DNA of 64,000 bases from Micromonospora peucetia. GTDB lineage: Bacteria > Actinomycetota > Actinomycetes > Mycobacteriales > Micromonosporaceae. The notes under the pieces are model-generated. The model worked only from the letters and a program-made list of their open reading frames with translations. It made no database searches and was not told the DNA's origin. The stretch spans positions 2,046,001-2,110,000 of the forward strand of contig NZ_FMIC01000002.1 in the NCBI RefSeq assembly GCF_900091625.1, read 5' to 3'. This document shows, in pieces, positions 1 to 63,989 of the stretch. The first letter of the stretch is position 1, and every line of letters starts with the position of its first letter. The translations under genes were made by a program, and so were the position numbers.

Positions 1-3000
1 GCCGTACTGCGGGTCGAGCCGGAGCCGGCGCCGGGCGTCGACGTCCTGCCGACCGTCGCCCGGCAGGCGGGCCTGCGGCTGGTCGTGGCCGGCGACGACG
101 AGCGGCGGTACGGCTTCGCCGACGCCCACCTGCCGGGTCGCGACCGGCTGGCCGAGTCGGTGCGGGCGCTGCAACGCGACGGGGCGGTGGTGATGGTGGT
201 CTCCGCCGACGGCGCCGCGCTCGGGGTCGCCGACTGCGGCCTGGGGCTCTCCGCCCCCGAGGACCTGCCGCCCTGGGGCGCGCACCTGCTGGTCGGTGCC
301 GACCTGCCGGTGGTGGCACTGATGATCGAGGCGACCGGGGTGGCCCGCCGGATGAGCCGGCAGAACATCGGCCTGGCCGTGGCCGGCACCGGCCTCGGCG
401 CGCTGGGGGCGCTCACCGCGGCACCCGCACAGTTGCCCGGCCGCGCCGTCGCGGCCGTGAACGGGGCAGCCGCACTGGCCTTCGCCCACGGCGTCCTGCG
501 AGCGCGCCGGCTGCCCGGCCCGGCGGACACCGCGGCGCCGGCCGTCACCGCCTGGCACCTGATGCCGTCCTCAACCGTGCTCGACCAGCTCGGCAGCGGC
601 CCGGACGGGCTCGCCACCGGCGAGGCCGAGCGCCGCCGGGGCGACGGAACCGGTCAGCCCACGGGCCCGACGGGGCTGCTCCGGGCCTTCGTCGACGAGC
701 TGGCCAACCCGCTCACCCCGGTCCTCGCCGCCGGGGCGGTGCTCTCCGCCACCTTCGGCTCGCTGGTCGACGCAGCCCTGGTCGGCGGGGTGGTCGGCGG
801 GTCGGCACTGCTCGGGGCGGTGCACCAGCACAACACCGAGCGGTCGCTGGCCGAGCTGCTGTCCCGCTCGGCGGTGACCGCCCGGGTACGCCGGGACGGC
901 GCGGAACGGATGCTGCCGGCCGATGACCTGGTGCCCGGGGACGTCATCGTCCTCGAATCGGGGGATGCCGTCCCGGCCGACTGCCGGGTGCTGGAATCGG
1001 CCGGCCTGGAGACCGACGAGTCCTCGCTCACCGGCGAGTCGCTGCCGGTCGGCAAGACCGACCAGCCCGTCGTCGCCGCCGCCGTCGCCGACCGGCGGTC
1101 GATGCTCTACGAGGGCACCACCGTCGCCGCCGGCAACGGAACAGCGGTGGTGGTCGCGACCGGCGCGAACACCGAGGCTGGGCGGAGCCTGGCGATGGCC
1201 CGGCAGGCCCCGCCGTCGAGCGGTGTGGAGGCGCGGCTGGGCCGGTTGACCCGGGCGGCGATCCCGCTGGCCGCCGGCTCGGCGGTTGCGGTGGCCGGCG
1301 CGGGGCTGCTGCGGGGCGTACCGCTGGCGGAGACCGCCGCGACCGCCGCGAACCTGGCCGTCGCGTCCGTGCCGGAGGGGCTGCCGTTCCTGGTCAGCGC
1401 CGCGCAGTTGGCCGCCGCGCGACGGCTGGCGGAACACGGCGCGCTGGTCCGCAACCCGCGCACCATCGAGGCCCTCGGCCGGGTGGACGTGCTCTGCTTC
1501 GACAAGACCGGCACCCTCACCGAGGGGGAGCTGATGCTCGCCGGGGTCGGCGACGACGGCCGGTACGCACCGGTCGACCGGCTCGACGGCGGCCTGTCGA
1601 TCACCCTCGCCGCCGCGCTGCGCGCCACCCCGGCCGCCGCCGACCCCCGCGATCTGGCCCAGCAGACCGACCGCGCGGTCCGGTCCGGCGCGCAGGCGGC
1701 CGGGGTGACCGAGCAGACCGGCGCGGACGGTTGGGAGCCGGTCGGTGGACTGCCCTTCGAGCCGTCCCGCGGCTACCACGCCACGGTCGGCCGAGCCGGG
1801 GACCGGCTGCTGCTCAGCGTGAAGGGGGCGCCGGAGTCGGTGCTGCCCCGCTGCTCCGGCCGGAGGCTGCCGGGGGGAGTCGACGAGCCGCTCGACGACG
1901 AGGGGCGCGGCGGGCTGCACGCCATGCTCGCCGACCGGGCGGGGGTGGGGCACCGGATCCTGGCCGTGGCCGAGTGCCGGGTCTCCTCGTCCGACGTCAC
2001 GGACGAGCAGGTGCGCGACCTGACCTTCGTGGGCTTCCTGGCCCTCGCCGACGGGGTACGCGAGAGTGCCGCCCCCGCCGTGCGCCGGATCCGTCAGGCC
2101 GGCGTGCACACCATCATGATCACCGGTGACCATCCGGCGACCGCCGAGGCGATAGCGGCCACCATCAGCGACCACGAGAACCAGCGGGTGGTCACCGCGT
2201 CGGAACTCGACCAGCTCGACGACGACGCCCTCGCCGCGCGGCTCGCCACCACGGACGTGGTGGCCCGGTGCACCCCCGCGCACAAGGTACGGATCATCCA
2301 GGCGTTGCAGAAGTGCGGGCGTACGGTGGCGATGACCGGCGACGGCGCCAACGACGCCCCGGCGATCCGGCTGGCCGACGTCGGCATCGCCCTCGGCCAA
2401 CGGGGCACCCCGGCGGCCCGGGCCGCGGCCGACCTGGTGGTCACCGACGACCGGCTGGAAACCATCATCGCCACCCTGGTCGAGGGCCGGGCGATGTGGT
2501 CCTCGGTACGCCACGCGCTCAGCATCCTGGTCGGCGGGAACCTCGGCGAGATCGCGTTCAGCGTGCTGACCGCCGCCGCGACCGGCCGCTCGGCGCTCAC
2601 CGGCCGGCAACTGCTCCTGGTCAACCTGCTCACCGACCTGGCGCCGGCGTTGGCGATCGCGGTCCGGCCACCCGGTGCGGACCATGCCGACGGACTGCTC
2701 CGGGAAGGCCCCGACACCTCGCTCGGCGAGACGATGACCCGGGAGATCGGGCTACGCGCCGCCGCCACCACGCTGGGCGCCACCGCCGGTTGGACGTTGG
2801 CCCGCTACACCGGGCGACGCCGGCGGGCGGGCACCGTCGCGCTGGTCTCGCTGGTCGGCACGCAGCTCGGGCAGACGGTGCTGGCCGGTGGCACCAGCCC
2901 GGCCGTACTGGCCTCCACCGCCGCGTCGGTCGGGGTGCTGGCGGCGGTCGTCCAGACGCCGGGAGTCAGCCAGTTCTTCGGCTGCACACCGCTCGGTCCG

Positions 3001-3180
3001 GTCGGCTGGACCATCGCGACGGGCTCCGCGCTCGGCGCCACCTTCGCGAACGGCGCGCTCACCCGCCTGGTGGAACGGCTGCCGCCGGCCGCGTCCCCGT
3101 CGGCACACCCACCGAACCCCGACGGCCGTTCCCCGACCCACGACGCGCACGACACGGCCGACAGGCCGGCACGGCCCTGA
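1..3180 (+). CDS. Cation-transporting P-type ATPase (CtpI-like), 5' end outside window
   Basis: The frame is open from base 1, so the N-terminus lies upstream; 1059 codons are visible. The C-terminal part is a complete P-type ATPase: actuator motif SSLTGES (near visible residue 344), membrane motif PEGLP typical of Ca/Na-type pumps, phosphorylation motif DKTGTLTE (Asp at about 501), and hinge motif TGDGANDAP (about 780). The first 150 residues look like the decayed end of a second ATPase unit, where a segment reading VVSADGAALGVADCGLGL stands in for the normal GDGxNDAPAL motif and hydrophobic helices follow. Such tandem, half-degenerate pumps are known in actinobacteria (CtpI/CtpH group, about 1500-1600 aa). 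The transported ion cannot be told from sequence. The tail is Pro/Ala-rich. Confidence 0.85.
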   Translation, partial: AVLRVEPEPAPGVDVLPTVARQAGLRLVVAGDDERRYGFADAHLPGRDRLAESVRALQRDGAVVMVVSADGAALGVADCGLGLSAPEDLPPWGAHLLVGADLPVVALMIEATGVARRMSRQNIGLAVAGTGLGALGALTAAPAQLPGRAVAAVNGAAALAFAHGVLRARRLPGPADTAAPAVTAWHLMPSSTVLDQLGSGPDGLATGEAERRRGDGTGQPTGPTGLLRAFVDELANPLTPVLAAGAVLSATFGSLVDAALVGGVVGGSALLGAVHQHNTERSLAELLSRSAVTARVRRDGAERMLPADDLVPGDVIVLESGDAVPADCRVLESAGLETDESSLTGESLPVGKTDQPVVAAAVADRRSMLYEGTTVAAGNGTAVVVATGANTEAGRSLAMARQAPPSSGVEARLGRLTRAAIPLAAGSAVAVAGAGLLRGVPLAETAATAANLAVASVPEGLPFLVSAAQLAAARRLAEHGALVRNPRTIEALGRVDVLCFDKTGTLTEGELMLAGVGDDGRYAPVDRLDGGLSITLAAALRATPAAADPRDLAQQTDRAVRSGAQAAGVTEQTGADGWEPVGGLPFEPSRGYHATVGRAGDRLLLSVKGAPESVLPRCSGRRLPGGVDEPLDDEGRGGLHAMLADRAGVGHRILAVAECRVSSSDVTDEQVRDLTFVGFLALADGVRESAAPAVRRIRQAGVHTIMITGDHPATAEAIAATISDHENQRVVTASELDQLDDDALAARLATTDVVARCTPAHKVRIIQALQKCGRTVAMTGDGANDAPAIRLADVGIALGQRGTPAARAAADLVVTDDRLETIIATLVEGRAMWSSVRHALSILVGGNLGEIAFSVLTAAATGRSALTGRQLLLVNLLTDLAPALAIAVRPPGADHADGLLREGPDTSLGETMTREIGLRAAATTLGATAGWTLARYTGRRRRAGTVALVSLVGTQLGQTVLAGGTSPAVLASTAASVGVLAAVVQTPGVSQFFGCTPLGPVGWTIATGSALGATFANGALTRLVERLPPAASPSAHPPNPDGRSPTHDAHDTADRPARP

Positions 3181-3231
3181 ACGCCACCGGTGGCGTCCGT
3201 TGGGGGTGCGCGTCGACTCTGCCCCGTCGAT

Positions 3232-3342
3232 GCTGTCGAGCTGCCCGCACAGATGGGGCACGTCGGCCTCGCCGCCGACGTCGCCCGCCCACTCAACCCT
3301 CCGCCGCACCTGCCGGTCTCACAGATGGGGCAGCTCGACAGC
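3232..3342. repeat. 15-bp inverted repeat enclosing a 13-bp direct repeat
   Basis: GCTGTCGAGCTGCCC at 3232-3246 is perfectly complementary to GGGCAGCTCGACAGC at 3328-3342. CACAGATGGGGCA occurs at 3248-3260 and again at 3320-3332. The element lies between two converging genes, so it could be a terminator or a small dispersed repeat. No open reading frame of note lies in the 3181-3446 gap. Confidence 0.6.
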
Positions 3343-3446
3343 GCCCCGCCACACTGCCCGGAGCCCTTTCCGGGCGCGCCGGGCACCCGACGGCCGCGAT
3401 GCCGACGAACTCGTGCCCCCGTCCTCCCGGCCCGTGCACCCCTGTC

Positions 3447-4436
3447 TCACCCTGCCGGATGCCAGGTGGCGGCGGCGCGGCGCAGCCGGTCGTTGATCGC
3501 CCGGCCCACGCCGACCTCGGGGACCGGCTCGACCAGGATCTCGCCGACCCCGGTGGCGTCCAGTTCGTGCAGCGCGTCGAACAGCCGCGCGGCGGCCTCG
3601 GTCAGATCACCGTCGGCGGAGAGCACCTCCACGGCGGCCCAGTCGCCCGCCGGCCGGTCCCGGAAGGCCAGGAAGCCGCGCCGCACCCCGTCCGCCGCCG
3701 GCGGCTCGCCGCCCGATACCAACCGCAGCGGCGTACGCGGGGCGTAGTGCGCCGCCAGCGTGCCGGGCGCGACCGGCCGCCCCGAGCTGCCCGGGCGTAC
3801 GGTCACCGGGCCGGCGGCCTCCTCCAGCGCCTCGACCGGCAGCGCGCCGAGGCGCAGCACCACCGGCTGCCCGCCCCGGGCGTCCACGATGGTCGACTCG
3901 ATCCCGCACCGCGTCGGCCCGCCGTCGAGCACCACGTCCACGGCGGCGCCCAGGCCCCGCACCACGTGTTCGGCCCGGGTCGGGCTGAGCTGGCCGAACC
4001 GGTTCGCGCTCGGTGCCGCCACCGGCACCCCGGCCTCGGCGATCAGCGCCCGCGCGTGCGCGTTGTCCGGCACCCGGACCGCCATCGTCGCCAGCCCGGA
4101 GGTGACGATCGGCGGGATCGCCGCCGGCCGGTCCACGATCAGCGTGAGCGGCCCCGGCCAGAACCGCTCGGCCAACGCCGCCACCGCCGCCGGCACCGCC
4201 CCCACCAGCTTCTCCAGTTCGGTCGCGTCGGCGAGGTGCGTGATCAGCGGGTCGAAACTGGGCCGCGCCTTCGCCTCGAAGATGCGGGCGGCGGCCCGGG
4301 CGTCCAGCGCGTTCGCGCCGAGCCCGTAGACGGTCTCGGTGGGAAAGGCCACCAACCCGCCGGTACGCAGGACGGAGGCGGCCTCGGCGATGCCGCGGTC
4401 GGCCGGGAGCACGCGCGGGGACGGTCCAGTGGTCAC
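3447..4436 (-). CDS. tsaC: L-threonylcarbamoyladenylate synthase, Sua5 type
   Basis: Predicted to make threonylcarbamoyl-AMP from threonine, bicarbonate and ATP, the first step of t6A37 tRNA modification. The YrdC domain fills about residues 10-205 (GGLVAFPTETVYGLGANA, then KARPSFDPLITH, then VPVAAPSANRFGQLSPT). A C-terminal Sua5 domain follows, with the usual linker ending in PGTLAAHYAPRTPL. At 329 aa this is a full-length Sua5-type enzyme rather than the short TsaC form. The GTG at 4436 is chosen because the frame upstream has no family similarity and would run into the divergent HAD gene. It converges on the ATPase gene. Confidence 0.9.
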   Translation of the reverse strand: MTTGPSPRVLPADRGIAEAASVLRTGGLVAFPTETVYGLGANALDARAAARIFEAKARPSFDPLITHLADATELEKLVGAVPAAVAALAERFWPGPLTLIVDRPAAIPPIVTSGLATMAVRVPDNAHARALIAEAGVPVAAPSANRFGQLSPTRAEHVVRGLGAAVDVVLDGGPTRCGIESTIVDARGGQPVVLRLGALPVEALEEAAGPVTVRPGSSGRPVAPGTLAAHYAPRTPLRLVSGGEPPAADGVRRGFLAFRDRPAGDWAAVEVLSADGDLTEAAARLFDALHELDATGVGEILVEPVPEVGVGRAINDRLRRAAATWHPAG

Positions 4437-4514
4437 ACCTGCGACGCTAACCTGCCGGGGTCGGCGTCGACTCGGCGGTGGCCGGGGCGTCGTCCGGTGC
4501 GCGAGGATGGCGGC

Positions 4515-5270
4515 ATGCTTCCTGCCCCTCGGGCTCTCCTGCTGGACTTCGGCGGCGTCCTGGCCGACGCGCCACCCCAACCACCGGCCGCACCGGGGCT
4601 GGTGCGGCGGCTGGCCGGGCTCGTCGACGACGCCGTCCCGGACGAGCAGATCGCCCGGGACCTCGGCGAAGGCACCCGGGCGTACGCCCGGTGGCGCGAC
4701 GACGTGGGCCGGACAGGTGACCCCGTCGAGCTGCCGCACGGCCAGGTCTGGGCCGACTTCGTGACCCGGTCCTGGCCGCGGGAGGCCCGCGACGCCGTCG
4801 AGCGGGAGGCGACCCCGCTGGCATACGCCTGGACCTGGCGGGAGGAGTGGGCGGTGCGGCCCGGCATCCCCGAGGCCTTACGCCACGCCGCCGACGCCGG
4901 CCTGCCGATGGCGGTCGTCAGTAACACGCTCTGCGGCGCCGCCCATCGGGACTTCCTCGCGGTCGCAGGGCTCTCCGGGCTGTTCGAGGCCGAGTTCTAC
5001 AGCGACGAGGCCGGGCCCCGAAAGCCGAACCCGGAGCTGGCACTGCTGGCGGCCCGCGCGATCACGGTGCCGATCGGCGACTGCTGGTTCGTCGGCGACA
5101 CCGTGCACCGCGACATCGCCTGCGCCCGTCGCGCCGGCGCCGCCGCCGCGATCCTCATGCGGTCACCCCGCACCGACCGGGAGGCGGCGCTGCCGGGAGT
5201 CGAACCGGACGCGCGGATCGAGGACGGCTACGGGCTCCTCGCGCTCCTGCGTGAGCACGCCCCCGCGTGA
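4515..5270 (+). CDS. HAD-superfamily hydrolase
   Basis: A 251-aa haloacid dehalogenase-like phosphatase. Motif I is LLLDFGGVL (nucleophile Asp near residue 11), motif II VVSNT, motif III the Lys in GPRKPNPE, and motif IV WFVGDTVHRD. A helical cap lies between motifs I and II. The second Asp of the usual DxD is replaced by Gly (DFGG), as in many HAD-IA proteins of the phosphoglycolate/haloacid group. The substrate is unknown. ATG 4515 is the only start fitting motif I at the N-terminus. The gene is divergent from the Sua5 gene, with 78 nt between starts. Confidence 0.85.
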   Translation: MLPAPRALLLDFGGVLADAPPQPPAAPGLVRRLAGLVDDAVPDEQIARDLGEGTRAYARWRDDVGRTGDPVELPHGQVWADFVTRSWPREARDAVEREATPLAYAWTWREEWAVRPGIPEALRHAADAGLPMAVVSNTLCGAAHRDFLAVAGLSGLFEAEFYSDEAGPRKPNPELALLAARAITVPIGDCWFVGDTVHRDIACARRAGAAAAILMRSPRTDREAALPGVEPDARIEDGYGLLALLREHAPA

Positions 5271-5372
5271 CAGTGGGTCCCCGAGGCCCATCGCCACGGC
5301 TCATCGATGACCTGCTCGTCATCGACGACCCACCAGCGCCAACAGGATTGTCATGCTCCGGTTTCCCGCGTC

Positions 5373-8192
5373 CTATCCGGTCGTCACCGTACGGATCTTG
5401 TCCAGAATGCGGCCGGCGTCCTGACCCAACTCCACGACGATGTCCAGCGCCTCCCGCCACACCCCACGCGCCGCCGACCGCTCGCCCTCGGCGAGATGGG
5501 TGTCGCCGAGGTGCGTGAGCGTGGCTGACTCGTAGTAGCGTTCACCCGCCTCGCGCCAGAGCGACAGGGCCTGTCGGTAACACTCGGTGGCCTCGGAATA
5601 TCGGCCCAGGTGGTGGTACGCGCACCCCAGGCTGTCCCAGGTGTGGGCCTGCCAGTAGCGGTTACCGGCCTCCTGGTGCAGCGCCAGCGCCCGCTGGCAG
5701 TGGTGTAGCGCCAGCTCGTGGTTACCGAGCTGGCTGTGGTACCAGCCCGCGTTGTTCAGGGCGTTCGCCTGCCCGGATCGGTGCCCGGCCGCCCGGAACA
5801 ACCGCAGCGCCTGTTCGGCGTAGCGCAGCGCGAGCCGGGGCTGGCTCCGATGCTCGGCGACCGTGCCCAGGTTGAGCAGGGTGCGGGCCTGCCCGACCTG
5901 ATCGCCGAGCCCGCGGTAGAGCCGCACCGCGTGCCACAGGTGGTCGCGGGCCTCACCGTGCAGGCCCCGACGCAGGTGCGCGATGGAGATGTTGCGGTGC
6001 GCTCGGGCCTGCCCGTCCCGGTCCCGGACCCGGTTGGCCGCCTCCAGCGCGAGCTGTTGAACGATCGCCTGGTCATGCCAGTGGCCACGCCGGTCCAGGA
6101 ACGTGGTCATGGCCCAGCCGAGCTGCCACGCGTGGACGTCGTGGCCATCGCTGCCAGCCCGCCGCAGAAGATTGAGCAGCACCGGATACTCCTGGCTGAA
6201 CCAGGCCCGGGCCGCCTCGCGGTCGCCGATGACCGCTACGGTCACGCCGAGGACCGCCGCCGGCAGCCGGATCGGATCCCGGTGTGGGTGCAGCCGCAGA
6301 TCGGCAAGGTGGGCGCTGCCCAGGTAGTGGTCGAACATCCGGTGGGTCACGGCCGGCCGCTCGGCGCTGTCCTCCTCGATGTCCGTCCGCTCCACGGCGT
6401 ACGCGCGGAGCAGGTCGTGCATGGCGTACCGGCCGGGCGTGTGCTCGGTGACCATGTGCGCGTACGCGAGTTCGGCCAACAGCGGGCGCACCCGCGAGGG
6501 TGGAACACCGGCGAGGCTGGCCGCCGCGACCGCACCCAGGTCCGGGCCGGGATGCATGCTGAGCAGTCGGAACAGGCGCGCGGCCGGACCACTCAGGGCA
6601 CGGTACGACCAGGAGAAGACCGACCGGACGTCGGTTTCGGCGTCCATGCCCGTGAACCCCTCCAGACCCCCGTGGGCCAGCTCCAACTCCTCGGCGATGG
6701 CCCGCAGGGAAAAGTGGGGGTGACTGACCATCCGGGACGCCACGATCGCCAGTGCCAGGGGCAGCCCCGCCGACCGGGCGGTGATCGTCGTGACGGCCGC
6801 CGGATCGGCGGTGAGCCGGGCCGCACCGAGACGGCGGATCAGCATGCGGTGCGCGTCGCCGAGCGGCAGCGGATCGAGGGTGATCGGATGTGCGCCCTCG
6901 GTCGTCACCAGGCCGGTCAGCCTGCTGCGGCTGGTGATCAGGGTGAGGCAGCCGGGTCCACCCGGCAGCAGCGGGCGGACGTGCGTGCTGTCGCGGGCGT
7001 TGTCCAGCACCAGCAGAACCCGGCGCTCGGCCAGCAGCGTGCGCAGCAACGCCGACTGGGCGGCGAGGCCCTCGGGCAACTGCTGTGCTGGCACACCGAA
7101 CGCGGCCAGGAAACCACGGACCGCCTCGCCGGGGTCAACCGGCGGACCCGTCGGATAAAAGCCGCGCAGGTCGACGTGGAGTTGGCCGTCCGGAAACCGG
7201 TCGACCACGAGGCGGGCGAAGTGGACCGCCAGGGCCGTCTTCCCCACCCCCGCGATGCCGGAGACGACCGCCACCATTGCCGTGCCGGCCCGAGCGGCCG
7301 CGTCCAGCAGCCCGCACAACCCGTCAAGCTCAGCGGTACGTCCGGTGAAGGCGTGCGGCGACGCGGGTAGCTGCGCTGGAACCGGCCTGGCCGGGGTCGG
7401 CGCCGCCGGCCGGCTGGGCTCCGGCCGGGAGATGGCCGTGGGCGCCGTGACCGGCGCCAGTCGCGGGTCGGCTTTGAGGATCGCCCGGTGCAGCTCGGCC
7501 AGTTCCTGTCCCGGCTCGATTCCCAGCTCACCCACCAGCAGTCGCCGCACCTGGTGATACGCCCGGAGCGCCTCGGTGCGGCGGCCGGCCCGGTAGAGGG
7601 CGAGCATGAGCTGCCCGTGGGCCCGCTCGCGCAGTGGTTCCGCCGCGACCAGGTCGGCGATCTCATCCACGAGTTCGACTCCCCCGCCCAACGTGAGTTC
7701 GTGTGACAGGCGTTCTTCCTGGAGGCTGCGGCGTTGGTCGTTGAGCTGCGCCGCCGCCGCCTCGATCAGCCGTCCGGTCACCCCGGTGAAGGCGGGCCCG
7801 CGCCACAGCGCCAGGGCCTCCCGCAGGTGGACGACCGCGCCCGCCAGCTCTCCGGCGGCGGCGAGCCGGCGGCCGTGCTGTGCCCGGTCGGCGAAGACCC
7901 GCAGGTCGATGTCGTCACCCGGGACGCGCAGCACGTACCCGCCGGACTCGGTGCCGATCTCGCCTGCCGTCACCAGCCGCCTACGTAGCATCGACACGCA
8001 GTTGCGAACCACCTTGACCGAGCTGGTCGGCGGATGCTCATCCCAGATCGCCTCGACCAACCGGGACATTGGCACCACCCGGTTCGCGTCGAGCAACAGG
8101 GCGGCCAGGACACGTTGCTCCCGTGATGCGGCCAGGGGAATCTCGCCACGGTCGAGCTGCACTCTGAACGGACCCAGTACCTGAAACCTCAC
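5373..8192 (-). CDS. SARP-family regulator with NB-ARC and TPR domains (AfsR-like)
   Basis: A 939-aa transcription factor. Residues 1-95 form an OmpR-like winged helix (starting MRFQVLGPFRV) and about 100-245 the bacterial transcriptional activator domain (ends LLVGELGIEPGQELAELH). An STAND/NB-ARC ATPase follows with Walker A GIAGVGKTAL near residue 310 and Walker B-like RRVLLVLDNA. The last 250 residues are tetratricopeptide repeats. This is the AfsR/large SARP layout, which activates nearby biosynthetic operons by binding direct repeats spaced 11 bp. It is divergent from the sdp-like operon, whose promoter holds exactly such repeats (8368-8400), so control of that operon is inferred. Confidence 0.92.
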   Translation of the reverse strand: MRFQVLGPFRVQLDRGEIPLAASREQRVLAALLLDANRVVPMSRLVEAIWDEHPPTSSVKVVRNCVSMLRRRLVTAGEIGTESGGYVLRVPGDDIDLRVFADRAQHGRRLAAAGELAGAVVHLREALALWRGPAFTGVTGRLIEAAAAQLNDQRRSLQEERLSHELTLGGGVELVDEIADLVAAEPLRERAHGQLMLALYRAGRRTEALRAYHQVRRLLVGELGIEPGQELAELHRAILKADPRLAPVTAPTAISRPEPSRPAAPTPARPVPAQLPASPHAFTGRTAELDGLCGLLDAAARAGTAMVAVVSGIAGVGKTALAVHFARLVVDRFPDGQLHVDLRGFYPTGPPVDPGEAVRGFLAAFGVPAQQLPEGLAAQSALLRTLLAERRVLLVLDNARDSTHVRPLLPGGPGCLTLITSRSRLTGLVTTEGAHPITLDPLPLGDAHRMLIRRLGAARLTADPAAVTTITARSAGLPLALAIVASRMVSHPHFSLRAIAEELELAHGGLEGFTGMDAETDVRSVFSWSYRALSGPAARLFRLLSMHPGPDLGAVAAASLAGVPPSRVRPLLAELAYAHMVTEHTPGRYAMHDLLRAYAVERTDIEEDSAERPAVTHRMFDHYLGSAHLADLRLHPHRDPIRLPAAVLGVTVAVIGDREAARAWFSQEYPVLLNLLRRAGSDGHDVHAWQLGWAMTTFLDRRGHWHDQAIVQQLALEAANRVRDRDGQARAHRNISIAHLRRGLHGEARDHLWHAVRLYRGLGDQVGQARTLLNLGTVAEHRSQPRLALRYAEQALRLFRAAGHRSGQANALNNAGWYHSQLGNHELALHHCQRALALHQEAGNRYWQAHTWDSLGCAYHHLGRYSEATECYRQALSLWREAGERYYESATLTHLGDTHLAEGERSAARGVWREALDIVVELGQDAGRILDKIRTVTTG

Positions 8193-8367
8193 GTACCTCC
8201 CGCCCTCGTCCGTGCGCCGGTCGGTGCGAACCCGGCCCGGCCGCCACCCGGACGAGCCGTGCCACTTCGGATTGTCACACCGCCACGAGCGCGTGCATAT
8301 CTGGTTGTTGACGGCGGACGGAACCAGTCCGGTCCCGTGGTGTTCGGGGTGCCGGGCCAGGCGCCAG

Positions 8368-8414
8368 CCGGGGACGCTCCGGGGACGAATCAGGGACGGT
8401 CCGGCGCAGAGTGT
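8368..8414 (+). promoter_or_regulatory. Three 11-bp direct repeats plus possible -10: candidate SARP-activated promoter
   Basis: Consecutive 11-mers CCGGGGACGCT (8368-8378), CCGGGGACGAA (8379-8389) and TCAGGGACGGT (8390-8400) share GGGACG at exactly 11-bp steps. Eight bases later comes GAGTGT (8409-8414), a possible -10 hexamer. SARP activators such as ActII-ORF4, DnrI and AfsR bind heptamer repeats on this 11-bp period, with the last repeat about 8 bp from the -10. The site sits 36 bp upstream of the SdpC-like start. Binding is inferred from layout, not shown. Confidence 0.65.
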
Positions 8415-8449
8415 TCCGGGAAGGTCACTTTGATTGGCGGGAGGTAGTC

Positions 8450-9088
8450 ATGACACACCGCAAGGTCTGGCTCAGCCTGTTCGTGCTGGTCCTGGCAACG
8501 GTGTCCGTCGGCTTCGGGGCACGCAGCCAGGCGAACCCCGGCTGGCCGGGCGGGACGCCACGGTACACGGCCACCCAGCTCTCCAACGCGATCCTGTTCA
8601 ACGACGGGCCGGCCGCCCATCGGCTGGTCTACCTGGAGCGCCCGCCGACGCGGTGGACGCCGATGCTACGGCTCGCCCAGAACGCGCTCAACGCGGAGCT
8701 GACCCGTCGGGGCGCCTGGTCCGACGGGTACATCTCGCAGCGGGTGCAGAGCGGCAATCCGGTCCTGGTCCGGGATGGCCTGGTCACCCTCGTCGCGCTG
8801 GCCCGCGAGGTGTTGAACCGGGAATTCGGCAAGGCAACCGTGGACTCCGCCGTGCTCCTGGTCAACGACGCCCTGCTCGAGAACGCGTACGAGGTCGTCC
8901 GAGCCGACTCCTACATCGACATGGACAACAACAACCGGACCCCACTGGAAGTCGGCACAATCAGGGCGATCTTCGCCGGCGGGTTCGCCGACTGGTCGTG
9001 GGACATGGCCGGCAACCCGGCGCCACAGGCCAAACTGGTGCAGGACCAGCTCATCCAGATCATCAGCCGCGACCTGCGGGTCAGGTAG
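8450..9088 (+). CDS. sdpC: SdpC-like secreted protein, candidate antimicrobial precursor
   Basis: A 212-aa protein with an N-terminal signal peptide: basic MTHRK, then a hydrophobic stretch and a small-residue region ending near ARSQA. After the signal, YTATQLSNAILFNDGPAAHRL resembles the conserved start of mature SdpC proteins (Bacillus FSGEDYFRGLLFGQGEVGKLI). In Bacillus, SdpC is cleaved to a hydrophobic 42-aa toxin with a disulfide. Here there is no cysteine at all and no long hydrophobic C-terminal segment, so the active part, if any, must differ. ATG 8450 follows GGGAGG (8439-8444). It is the first gene of the operon; SdpA- and SdpB-like genes follow. No SdpI-like immunity gene is seen. 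Confidence 0.65.
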   Translation: MTHRKVWLSLFVLVLATVSVGFGARSQANPGWPGGTPRYTATQLSNAILFNDGPAAHRLVYLERPPTRWTPMLRLAQNALNAELTRRGAWSDGYISQRVQSGNPVLVRDGLVTLVALAREVLNREFGKATVDSAVLLVNDALLENAYEVVRADSYIDMDNNNRTPLEVGTIRAIFAGGFADWSWDMAGNPAPQAKLVQDQLIQIISRDLRVR

Positions 9089-9094
9089 TCCGCA

Positions 9095-9613
9095 GTGGAC
9101 GACATCGGGCTGGGCCGGCGGATCGCCGCGATCGCGTTGGTCGCCGGATTGCTCGTGGGCTACATCGTCCGGGCGGTGGTGCCGGTGGCCGCGATGCCGG
9201 CCCCACCCGGCCGGTCGGTCGCCCGCGTACTGATACCGGAGGGCTGGGCGTTCTTCACCCGCGACCCCCGCCTGCCCAGCCCGGTGGCCTACACCACGGA
9301 CCGGGACGGACGGTGGCGGGTTGCCCCGGGCCGCAGCCGTGGCCCGGCCGGCCTGGACAAGCGGGACCGGGCCCGCAGCGCGGAGATCTCGCTGCTCACC
9401 CGCCAGTTGGACGGGCCCGCGTGGACCAGGTGTGACCGCGAAGCCGCCGCCTGCCTGGCCACTGCCCGGGAAACCGAAGCAGCCAACACCGCCACCGTCC
9501 GCACGCTCTGTGGCAACGTCGGAATCGTCCTTCAGGAGGTACTCCCGTGGGCCTGGAAAGACCTGCCTACCGTACTCCCGTCGCGAGTGGCCCGGCTCAC
9601 GGTGGCCTGCTAG
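9095..9613 (+). CDS. sdpA: SdpA-family maturation protein
   Basis: A 172-aa protein with one N-terminal membrane anchor (about residues 8-30) and an extracytoplasmic domain. The family signature PEGWAFFTRDPR and, near the end, CGNVGIVLQEVLPWAW match SdpA proteins, which in Bacillus act with SdpB to turn SdpC into active toxin. Four cysteines lie in the C-terminal half. The GTG start is 6 nt after the sdpC-like stop, consistent with one transcript. The last 67 nt overlap the start of the SdpB-like gene. Confidence 0.75.
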   Translation: MDDIGLGRRIAAIALVAGLLVGYIVRAVVPVAAMPAPPGRSVARVLIPEGWAFFTRDPRLPSPVAYTTDRDGRWRVAPGRSRGPAGLDKRDRARSAEISLLTRQLDGPAWTRCDREAAACLATARETEAANTATVRTLCGNVGIVLQEVLPWAWKDLPTVLPSRVARLTVAC

Positions 9614-10572
9614 ACGGGTGGCTGGCCCGGGTCGGCCGTCGCTGCCGACCTGGGCTGTCGGTCGCGCCCTGGTCCAGCGGGGTCGGGCTGGCCCGGACCC
9701 TGCTGGCCGCCGGCACCAGTGCCACCCTGCTGGTCAACCCACCGGCGATCCTGCTGGCCGTGGACGGCGTCGAGCACTGCACGGGACCGGCCGCCGCCGG
9801 TATCTGGTGCGCTCTTCCCTCCGGGCACGGGCAACTCGCCCGGTGGATCGGAATCGCCGTGCTGATCGTGGTGGCCAGCGGCTGGCGTCCCCGGTGGACC
9901 GCGCTGCCACACTGGTACATCTCCTGGAGTGTGATCGCCAACCTGTCCGCGTTGGACGGCGGCGACCACATCACGGCCACCCTTACCCTGCTGCTGCTCC
10001 CGCTGGCGCTCACCGACCCCCGGCGGTGGCACTGGCAACCGCCGCCGGCCGACACCAGGATCGGCACCGGCCGGGTGGTCGCGCACGCCGCTCTGATCCT
10101 CATCTGGCTCCAGGTCGCCTTCGTGTACCTGCACGCCAGCATCGCCAAACTAGACGTGACCGAGTGGGCCGACGGCACCGCAATGTTCTACTGGCTGCGC
10201 ACGCCCGGGTACGAGCCGCCCAGCCTGCTGCGCCCGCTGACCGAGACGGTCACCGGCTCCGCGGCGGGGGTGACGCTGTTCACCTGGTCGGTGCTGGTGC
10301 TGGAGTTCGCTCTGGCCCTGGCCCGACTGTTGCCTCCCGGGCTGCGCCGCGTACTACTCGTCGCCGGCCTGGCGTTCCATATCGGTATCGCGGTCGTCCT
10401 GGAGCTGGTCACGTTCGGCTTCGCGATGAGCGGGGCCCTGCTGCTCTACCTGTCGCCCGTGGGACACCAGGTCAGGCTGCCGGCAATTCACGGTAGCGCG
10501 GGCGCGCAGTACGTGACAGCGCACGTCGGCCCGGACAGGCCTACGGCTGTACCGGAGCAGGACACGGCGTAA
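9547..10572 (+). CDS. sdpB: SdpB-family membrane protein (HTTM domain)
   Basis: A 341-aa multipass membrane protein with about six to eight hydrophobic segments. Motifs match SdpB/HTTM proteins (vitamin K-dependent carboxylase-like membrane fold): GLARTLLAAGT near residue 45, WYISWSVIANLS with GGDHI, and FVYLHASIAKLDVTEWADGTAMFYW. In Bacillus SdpB is needed with SdpA to mature the SdpC toxin. The GTG start lies inside the SdpA-like gene, preceded by AGGAGG at 9534-9539 with a 7-nt spacer, so a true overlapping start is well supported. It is the last gene of the operon. Confidence 0.8.
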   Translation: MGLERPAYRTPVASGPAHGGLLDGWLARVGRRCRPGLSVAPWSSGVGLARTLLAAGTSATLLVNPPAILLAVDGVEHCTGPAAAGIWCALPSGHGQLARWIGIAVLIVVASGWRPRWTALPHWYISWSVIANLSALDGGDHITATLTLLLLPLALTDPRRWHWQPPPADTRIGTGRVVAHAALILIWLQVAFVYLHASIAKLDVTEWADGTAMFYWLRTPGYEPPSLLRPLTETVTGSAAGVTLFTWSVLVLEFALALARLLPPGLRRVLLVAGLAFHIGIAVVLELVTFGFAMSGALLLYLSPVGHQVRLPAIHGSAGAQYVTAHVGPDRPTAVPEQDTA

Positions 10573-10616
10573 CCGGCTTGGCTGTACTCGGAACCGAGAT
10601 CAACCGGTGTTCGTGC

Positions 10617-63468: not shown

Positions 63469-63882
63469 TCAGCCGAGCGTGGCATGCGTTCCCTTCACCG
63501 CGAGGATCTCCGCCGGCCCTTGGGCATCCGCATCGTTGATCAGAGTCTGTACTGCCTGGGACAGATCGACGAGCGCGGTCTGGATTGCCTTGAGTGTCGG
63601 CAGGTTGGTCGTCTCGCCTGGCTGGGTAGCATTTGCCGGCCCCCGCAACTGCGTCTCCAGCCGGAGCAGGGCAGGGCCCAGGCCGAGCCCCAGTTCCCGG
63701 TCCAACCGCTGGCGGAGTCGTCGGAGCACCTCCAGCGCGTCGGCCGTACGGAACGCGTGGTGTAGTGCCTGGGCCAGACAGGCGTGCAGGAACTCGTTGT
63801 ACGGATAAATCTGCGTCCACAGGCTCAGGTCGGGGACCCAGGGCCCCGGCAAAGTCGCGGCGTGTCCGATACCGCACCGCAT
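63469..63882 (-). pseudogene. BTAD-like fragment of a SARP-type regulator
   Basis: The reading frame gives YPYNEFLHACLAQALHHAFR and TADALEVLRRLRQRLDRELGLG, then LGPALLRLETQL. This resembles the last third of a bacterial transcriptional activator domain. The DNA-binding domain is absent; an in-frame stop lies upstream at about 63937. Probably a remnant, or a free-standing BTAD-type peptide; the following 60 residues are of unknown type. The upstream part of the window edge was examined and holds no winged helix. Confidence 0.5.
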
Positions 63883-63934
63883 CGGAGCCGCATGCGTCGC
63901 TGCCGTGCGTATCCGGAGCCCCGCCAGCCTCGGT

Positions 63935-63989
63935 GATCATGAAGTTGACTGGCGGGAACCGGGCATTTTGCACCGCTAGCTTCATGATC
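63935..63989. repeat. Inverted repeat GATCATGAAG at the right edge
   Basis: GATCATGAAG (63935-63944) and its complement CTTCATGATC (63980-63989) face each other across 35 bp, with partial matching beyond (GTTGAC versus GCTAGC). It could be a small dispersed palindromic element upstream of the BTAD fragment. Confidence 0.55.

Follow-up and report, generated by a model that had tools for sequence, protein, structure and literature searches.

The window analyzed here, 64,000 nucleotides of the Micromonospora peucetia genome (contig NZ_FMIC01000002.1, positions 2,046,001–2,110,000), carries an apparently self-regulated SDP-type cassette that occupies varied chromosomal places in related species and that, as we judge with moderate confidence, probably yields a soluble secreted peptide and not a membrane toxin. 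SDP-type systems are best known for producing membrane toxins; if this reading is correct, antibiotic-producing actinobacteria would seem to have turned the SdpAB machinery to secreted peptides of another kind, and the cassette offers a defined promoter for switching on the product. The cassette consists of a regulatory gene divergent from three genes that we designate C, A, and B in the order in which they occur:

5373–8192, minus strand: AfsR-like large SARP regulator, 939 aa (Trans_reg_C, BTAD, NB-ARC, and TPR matches), divergent from C-A-B
8370–8376, 8381–8387, and 8392–8398, plus strand: three heptamers with an 11-bp period, putative SARP operator
8407–8412, plus strand: putative −10 hexamer, CAGAGT, 8 bp after the third heptamer
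8438–8443, plus strand: likely RBS for C, GGGAGG, read from the sequence
8450–9088, plus strand: C, SdpC-family precursor, 212 aa (homology, profile, and alignment)
C residues ~1–28, plus strand: signal peptide, assigned by eye
8876–9025, plus strand: predicted core of C, residues 143–192 with boundaries of our choosing; acidic, non-hydrophobic, without Cys, and of low model confidence
9095–9613, plus strand: A, SdpA, 172 aa (TIGR04034 and PF17418)
9547–10572, plus strand: B, SdpB/HTTM, 341 aa (TIGR04033 and HTTM)

As the initial annotation had it, the three genes are consecutive on the plus strand and the motifs claimed for A and B are present; C and A are separated by 6 nt, and A and B overlap by 67 nt. 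We place the start of C at the ATG at 8450, with the GGGAGG ahead of it; the start of a longer open reading frame, at 8411, falls within the predicted promoter. Downstream of C-A-B are genes for tRNA-Ala and tRNA-Ile, a DUF3566 gene, and gyrA/gyrB. The proposed identities of A and B as SdpA and SdpB are borne out above curated cut-offs: A scores 80.1 bits with TIGR04034 (cut-off 53.1) and 83.3 bits with PF17418 (E = 1.9e-23; cut-off 25), and B scores 247.7 bits with TIGR04033 (E = 1.6e-73; cut-off 178.4) and 28.8 bits with HTTM (cut-off 27.7). SdpA combines a single predicted helix at the N-terminus with another domain, whose four cysteines are invariant in all 22 aligned proteins; fold searches with the SdpA model yielded no clear match.

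The profile check that succeeds for A and B fails for C, that is, C matches no library model used, neither any Pfam family nor TIGR04032 (SdpC). The SdpC signature read in C by the initial annotation nevertheless stands as a family tie, by a homology chain as well as by profile and alignment. The C protein of the window is similar to that of another locus in the family (L022; BLASTP, 35% identity over 149 residues, E = 8e-16), and the latter matches TIGR04032 at E = 5.3e-8, under the curated cut-off; this chain is independent of our own C profiles (family loci; 354 genomes), which include the window C itself. Among the aligned C proteins (20 of the 21 from the family, L016 being left out), 16 match TIGR04032 at E ≤ 0.1, and the six of these 16 that were checked singly all fall below the 99.2-bit cut-off; the four that do not match are the window C and those of loci L025, L026, and L027, which together form one clade. 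These links place the window C in the SdpC family by homology, as a divergent member that fails the library model. All 11 C homologues found also carry a precomputed tag for PF26137, which we take to be the SdpC family. The nearest named relative is from Micromonospora sp. NPDC047074 (89% identical). C carries LFxxGPxA and QSGNP motifs and adjoins A in all four clade loci; in the 20-protein alignment, a conserved carrier (G53, S101, and G102 are invariant) and a conserved C-terminal helix flank a variable segment.

SdpA (TIGR04034) has matches in 13 of 160 genomes of the genus, in 25 of 354 genomes of the family (at 27 places, and above the curated cut-off in 22 of the genomes), and in 4 of 396 genomes drawn from the phylum, each of these counts including the window's own genome, and in 25 of 392 genomes of one other genus. 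We read the 27 family loci over 9–14 kb each (the window over its first 20 kb): our profiles detect A and B in all 27, and in 21 of them the gene immediately before A is C, so the neighborhood comparison confirms C-A-B as a recurrent arrangement. The initial annotation had contrasted this order with A-B-C; the order is real but not peculiar to the window, as it is shared by 21/21 loci that bear C. The expected co-occurrence in relatives is also seen: the C profile matches 23 of 354 family genomes at E ≤ 0.001, 21 of them strongly (E ≤ 3.4e-33), and every strong-C genome also has SdpA (four of the 25 SdpA genomes are without a strong C). The search gave three more rows for C, all of them weak and partial (E = 1.7e-4 to 5.4e-4); one is a second place in a strong-C genome. 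Within the stretches read, 16 of the 27 loci have a homologue of the window SARP (E < 1e-8). Taking the 19 BTAD matches of the window's genome as the SARP density, a rough binomial estimate puts the chance of this association at ~6e-17, a value that makes the association look stronger than it is: the loci are not independent (four are one clade), the density comes from a single genome, and every stretch was given a length of 14 kb.

The adjacency of C and A bears on the reading in which C has a structural or immunity role and SdpAB acts on a substrate encoded elsewhere in the genome. The six loci without C by profile, two of them with a small open reading frame directly upstream of A, speak for this reading; these loci are distant, and five of the six are under the SdpA cut-off. 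We consider the reading very improbable, given that C immediately precedes A in 21 of 27 loci and that most other C proteins have toxin-like hydrophobic cores (vide infra).

The SARP gene and C-A-B are collinear in the window and in L025, L026, and L027, forming a shared unit of 5.1 kb in which the divergent SARP homologues are 83–88% identical to the window's. Nucleotide similarity (85–87%) extends from window positions 5377–5382 to 10483–10505, that is, homology stops at the gene ends, and the flanks in the three relatives differ from those of the window; outside the unit, the first 20 kb of the window has no match (E ≤ 1e-5) to the 14-kb stretches of the clade, except for an extra SARP-to-SARP piece in L027. 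Because a collinear unit is found between different flanks, it has apparently moved in one piece. The analysis identified no mobility gene, and the shared unit contains no fifth gene. The window copy is located between a TsaC gene (3447–4739) and tRNA-Ala. The tRNA region was found in all 10 genomes searched; in seven relatives whose stretches were fetched, the right (tRNA) flank is present in 7/7, the left-flank P-type ATPase in 6/7, and TsaC in 3/7, and the interval between the flanks ranges from less than 1 kb to nearly 9 kb. This variable interval suggests that window positions 3100–10616 are a variable slot near gyrA.

The domain matches of the divergent gene agree with the AfsR-like regulator of the initial annotation; with 531 bits, the protein does not reach the AfsR equivalog cut-off (1430 bits). 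Upstream of C, the putative operator reads GGGGACG-N4-GGGGACG-N4-AGGGACG (RGGGACG-like heptamers). The −10-like hexamer reads CAGGGT in L025, L026, and L027; the first two of these also have GGGGATC as their middle heptamer. Using 200 first-order random sequences for each of 20 loci, the 11-bp triple has p ≤ 0.005 in all four clade loci, with periods of 8–10 and 12–14 scoring lower. A p-value of 0.005 is reached by six of the 20 loci (the four clade loci, L042, and L045) and not by 14, five of which are SARP-linked; for SARP-linked loci with C, the triple is present within 400 bp upstream of C in 5/10 and absent in 5/10. L042 has its own 11-bp triple upstream of C, of the CAACCGG type, and L045 has a triple but no SARP match in the stretch read. 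The 7.37-Mb genome contains the strict triple a single time (0 for the backwards control), and the window holds one instance of a looser pattern (0.07 expected; 7 of 100 window shuffles hold one). As both patterns were derived from this very site, more weight falls on the conservation in four loci.

AfsR-type promoters have direct repeats with an 11-bp period, the final one 8 bp away from the −10 element (introduction of PMC10936776), and PimR, in the excerpt of its description, recognizes three heptamers with 4-bp spacers (PMC5930380). The computed pattern upstream of C agrees with this published geometry in repeats, period, spacers, and −10 spacing; it differs from the PimR case as excerpted in the heptamer (CGGCAAG for PimR; GGGGACG here) and in its target, an SDP-type operon. 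The antibiotic-type regulatory wiring proposed earlier is supported by this geometry, which is conserved in all four clade loci: a putative SARP operator appears to control C-A-B. From this geometry we infer that the SARP would bind the three heptamers and recruit RNA polymerase. Near the far end of the window, 63643–63942 on the minus strand (contig 2109643–2109942) has a partial BTAD match with an in-frame TGA and is possibly a decayed SARP.

The core of C separates the clade from most of the family. The window core has a net charge of −5, is Asn/Asp-rich, contains Trp, and includes neither Cys nor a stretch hydrophobic enough to span a membrane; its maximum 19-residue hydropathy is 0.63 (0.62–0.85 for the four clade precursors). 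We scored 43 C proteins, of which 21 belong to the family loci and 22 to other genera (two matches without a core-placing motif were left out, and 4 of the 27 other-genera loci have no C within their short stretches). The five lowest are the four clade members and L042 (0.59–0.85), followed by L049 (1.17); the remaining 37 score at least 1.41, and 34 of the 43 at least 1.6. By this scoring, a hydrophobic C-terminal toxin domain such as C141–S182 of SdpC is absent from the four clade precursors. The initial annotation's description of the product as a toxin finds no support in the precursor itself: the excerpted text of PMC6818787 gives B. subtilis SdpC, YitM, and further SdpC groups a hydrophobic C-terminal domain, and the window core has none. 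Since the core is acidic and has neither a hydrophobic stretch nor Cys, its composition makes a soluble secreted peptide, rather than a membrane-collapsing toxin, most likely.

An ordinary SDP-like toxin would require that the weakly hydrophobic stretch LEVGTIRAIFAGGFADWSW insert into membranes after processing and kill neighboring cells. The family identity of A, B, and C is in keeping with such a toxin, LEVGTIRAIFAGGFADWSW occupies the position of the hydrophobic segment of other members, and antibiotics are typically under SARP control; however, the maximum hydropathy is far from the values of at least 1.6 in most members, the helical moment along LEVGTIRAIFAGGFADWSW is low, and the core is negatively charged and devoid of Cys. 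Immunity also counts against a toxin of this type. SdpI (PF13630) has no match in the whole genome at E ≤ 0.001 (as a control, the model matches in 5 of 14 genomes, B. subtilis included), so the absence of a visible SdpI that was first noted at the locus extends to the genome; together with the lack of a further gene in the unit, this agrees with a product for which SdpI-type immunity is unnecessary, but an unrelated immunity protein may be present. We regard the ordinary toxin as a somewhat unlikely explanation.

The missing hydrophobic core could also mean that the toxin segment of C is gone and that C survives only as a passenger or processing competitor. The clade forms a long branch in the C tree, and the three pairs that include L025 have core dN of 0.166–0.201 with dS of 0.185–0.304, that is, their cores are unconstrained. 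Degradation is nonetheless improbable, because C is free of stops in 4/4 loci and aligns over its full length, the operator is conserved, 19 core residues are invariant in 11 C homologues (an Asp/Asn loop varies in sequence and length), and the three pairs among the window, L026, and L027 have core dN of 0.018–0.027 with dS of 0.31–0.58 (dN/dS ~0.03–0.09). The core is strongly constrained among these three of the four clade species; the C-terminal tail has dN of 0.13–0.24 in all six clade pairs. In the SdpA tree, L042, L043, L045, L048, and L049 fall into one group with the clade (support 0.953, with weak branching inside).

We thus favor a soluble secreted peptide, for which an AlphaFold2 model of C run on the 20-protein alignment suggests an architecture: block means of pLDDT are 71–96 for residues 31–130, 39–51 for 141–190, and 69–89 for 191–210, consistent with a helical carrier (~41–140), a short flexible core (~143–192), and a C-terminal helix. 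C would be exported via its signal peptide as an SdpC-family precursor; by analogy with B. subtilis SDP, which requires SdpA and SdpB (PMC6818787, in excerpt), the membrane pair SdpA/SdpB would process or modify C, and the peptide would be released from its core. The product might be a signal or an antibiotic with another target.

Compared with the B. subtilis sdpABC operon as excerpted in PMC6818787, the window shares the SdpA and SdpB families, a secreted precursor with a C-terminal core, and a three-gene operon; it differs in its C-A-B order, the lack of an sdpRI pair in the unit and of an SdpI match in the genome, a SARP instead of Spo0A control, and a core that is non-hydrophobic and without Cys. 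The B. subtilis yitPOM system (same source, in part) shares with the window a precursor that resembles SdpC only outside the toxin core and control by another regulator; it differs in that YitM keeps a hydrophobic core, and YitQ confers resistance. SDP-type genes outside Bacillus, in actinobacteria too, are already known: the excerpts describe weak sdpABC homologues in Brevibacterium (PMC5719810) and SdpAB/SdpC homologues in Streptomyces and Myxococcus (PMC3924187), with no mention there of a SARP link, an operator, or a soluble core. Among the papers listed in our literature search, none was seen to deal with regulation of SDP-type operons by a SARP or with an SdpC core of soluble type; these two features appear to be new.

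The chemistry of SdpB is made directly testable by active-site residues like those of vitamin K-dependent gamma-carboxylase (GGCX). A profile built from 11 of the 27 SdpB proteins was compared with the PDB, and at E ≤ 1 only GGCX was found (seven distinct sequences, E ~4e-5). The alignment is partial, spanning only SdpB profile residues 173–294, and the window SdpB (341 aa) is under half the length of the 758-residue GGCX chain. PMC12589487, in the part available, identifies GGCX K218 as the catalytic base and lists seven residues of the quinol ring pocket. Counted along the alignment in 758-residue chain numbering, SdpB K201 aligns with K218; five of the seven listed ring-pocket residues lie within the alignment, and four are identical in the window SdpB (SdpB/GGCX: V193/V210, W207/W223, F277/F286, and F290/F299), the mismatch being L285 for F294. 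K201, W207, and F290 are invariant in 11/11 SdpB proteins, and F277 is F in 5/11. H160 and M401 of the pocket, the Glu-binding residues of GGCX (N158/N159/H160), and its propeptide-binding domain are outside the alignment. SdpB-type HTTM proteins might be menaquinol-dependent peptide modifiers akin to vitamin K carboxylase, so that the cassette would make a secreted, soluble acidic peptide, perhaps metal-binding or carboxylated, that does not insert into membranes; we consider this specific proposal quite unlikely. No paper in the collection searched has both SdpB and HTTM.

Several other loci of the family are worth recording. L042 (5625–6221, plus strand) encodes another precursor of the SdpC family, also SARP-linked, whose core is not hydrophobic (0.59), and the SdpC-family cores of L048 (5643–6254) and L043 (2237–2845) are Trp/Tyr-rich with some basic residues, in contrast to the bland Ala/Val helices of other members. 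The SdpAB loci without C by profile (L028, L050, L051, L052, L053, and L054) all have a SARP nearby and possibly represent another class of SdpAB-dependent peptide. In L051 (7238–7459, minus strand) and L054 (7062–7265, minus strand), the tiny open reading frame directly upstream of sdpA has a hydrophobic N-terminus and a short polar tail; in L028, L050, and L052, a GNAT-like protein (by eye) is encoded directly after sdpB, followed further on in L028 by an MFS-like gene (also named by eye). L028 (G178:C1) is a second SARP-linked SdpAB locus, without SdpC, in a genome (G178) that also has the window-type unit.
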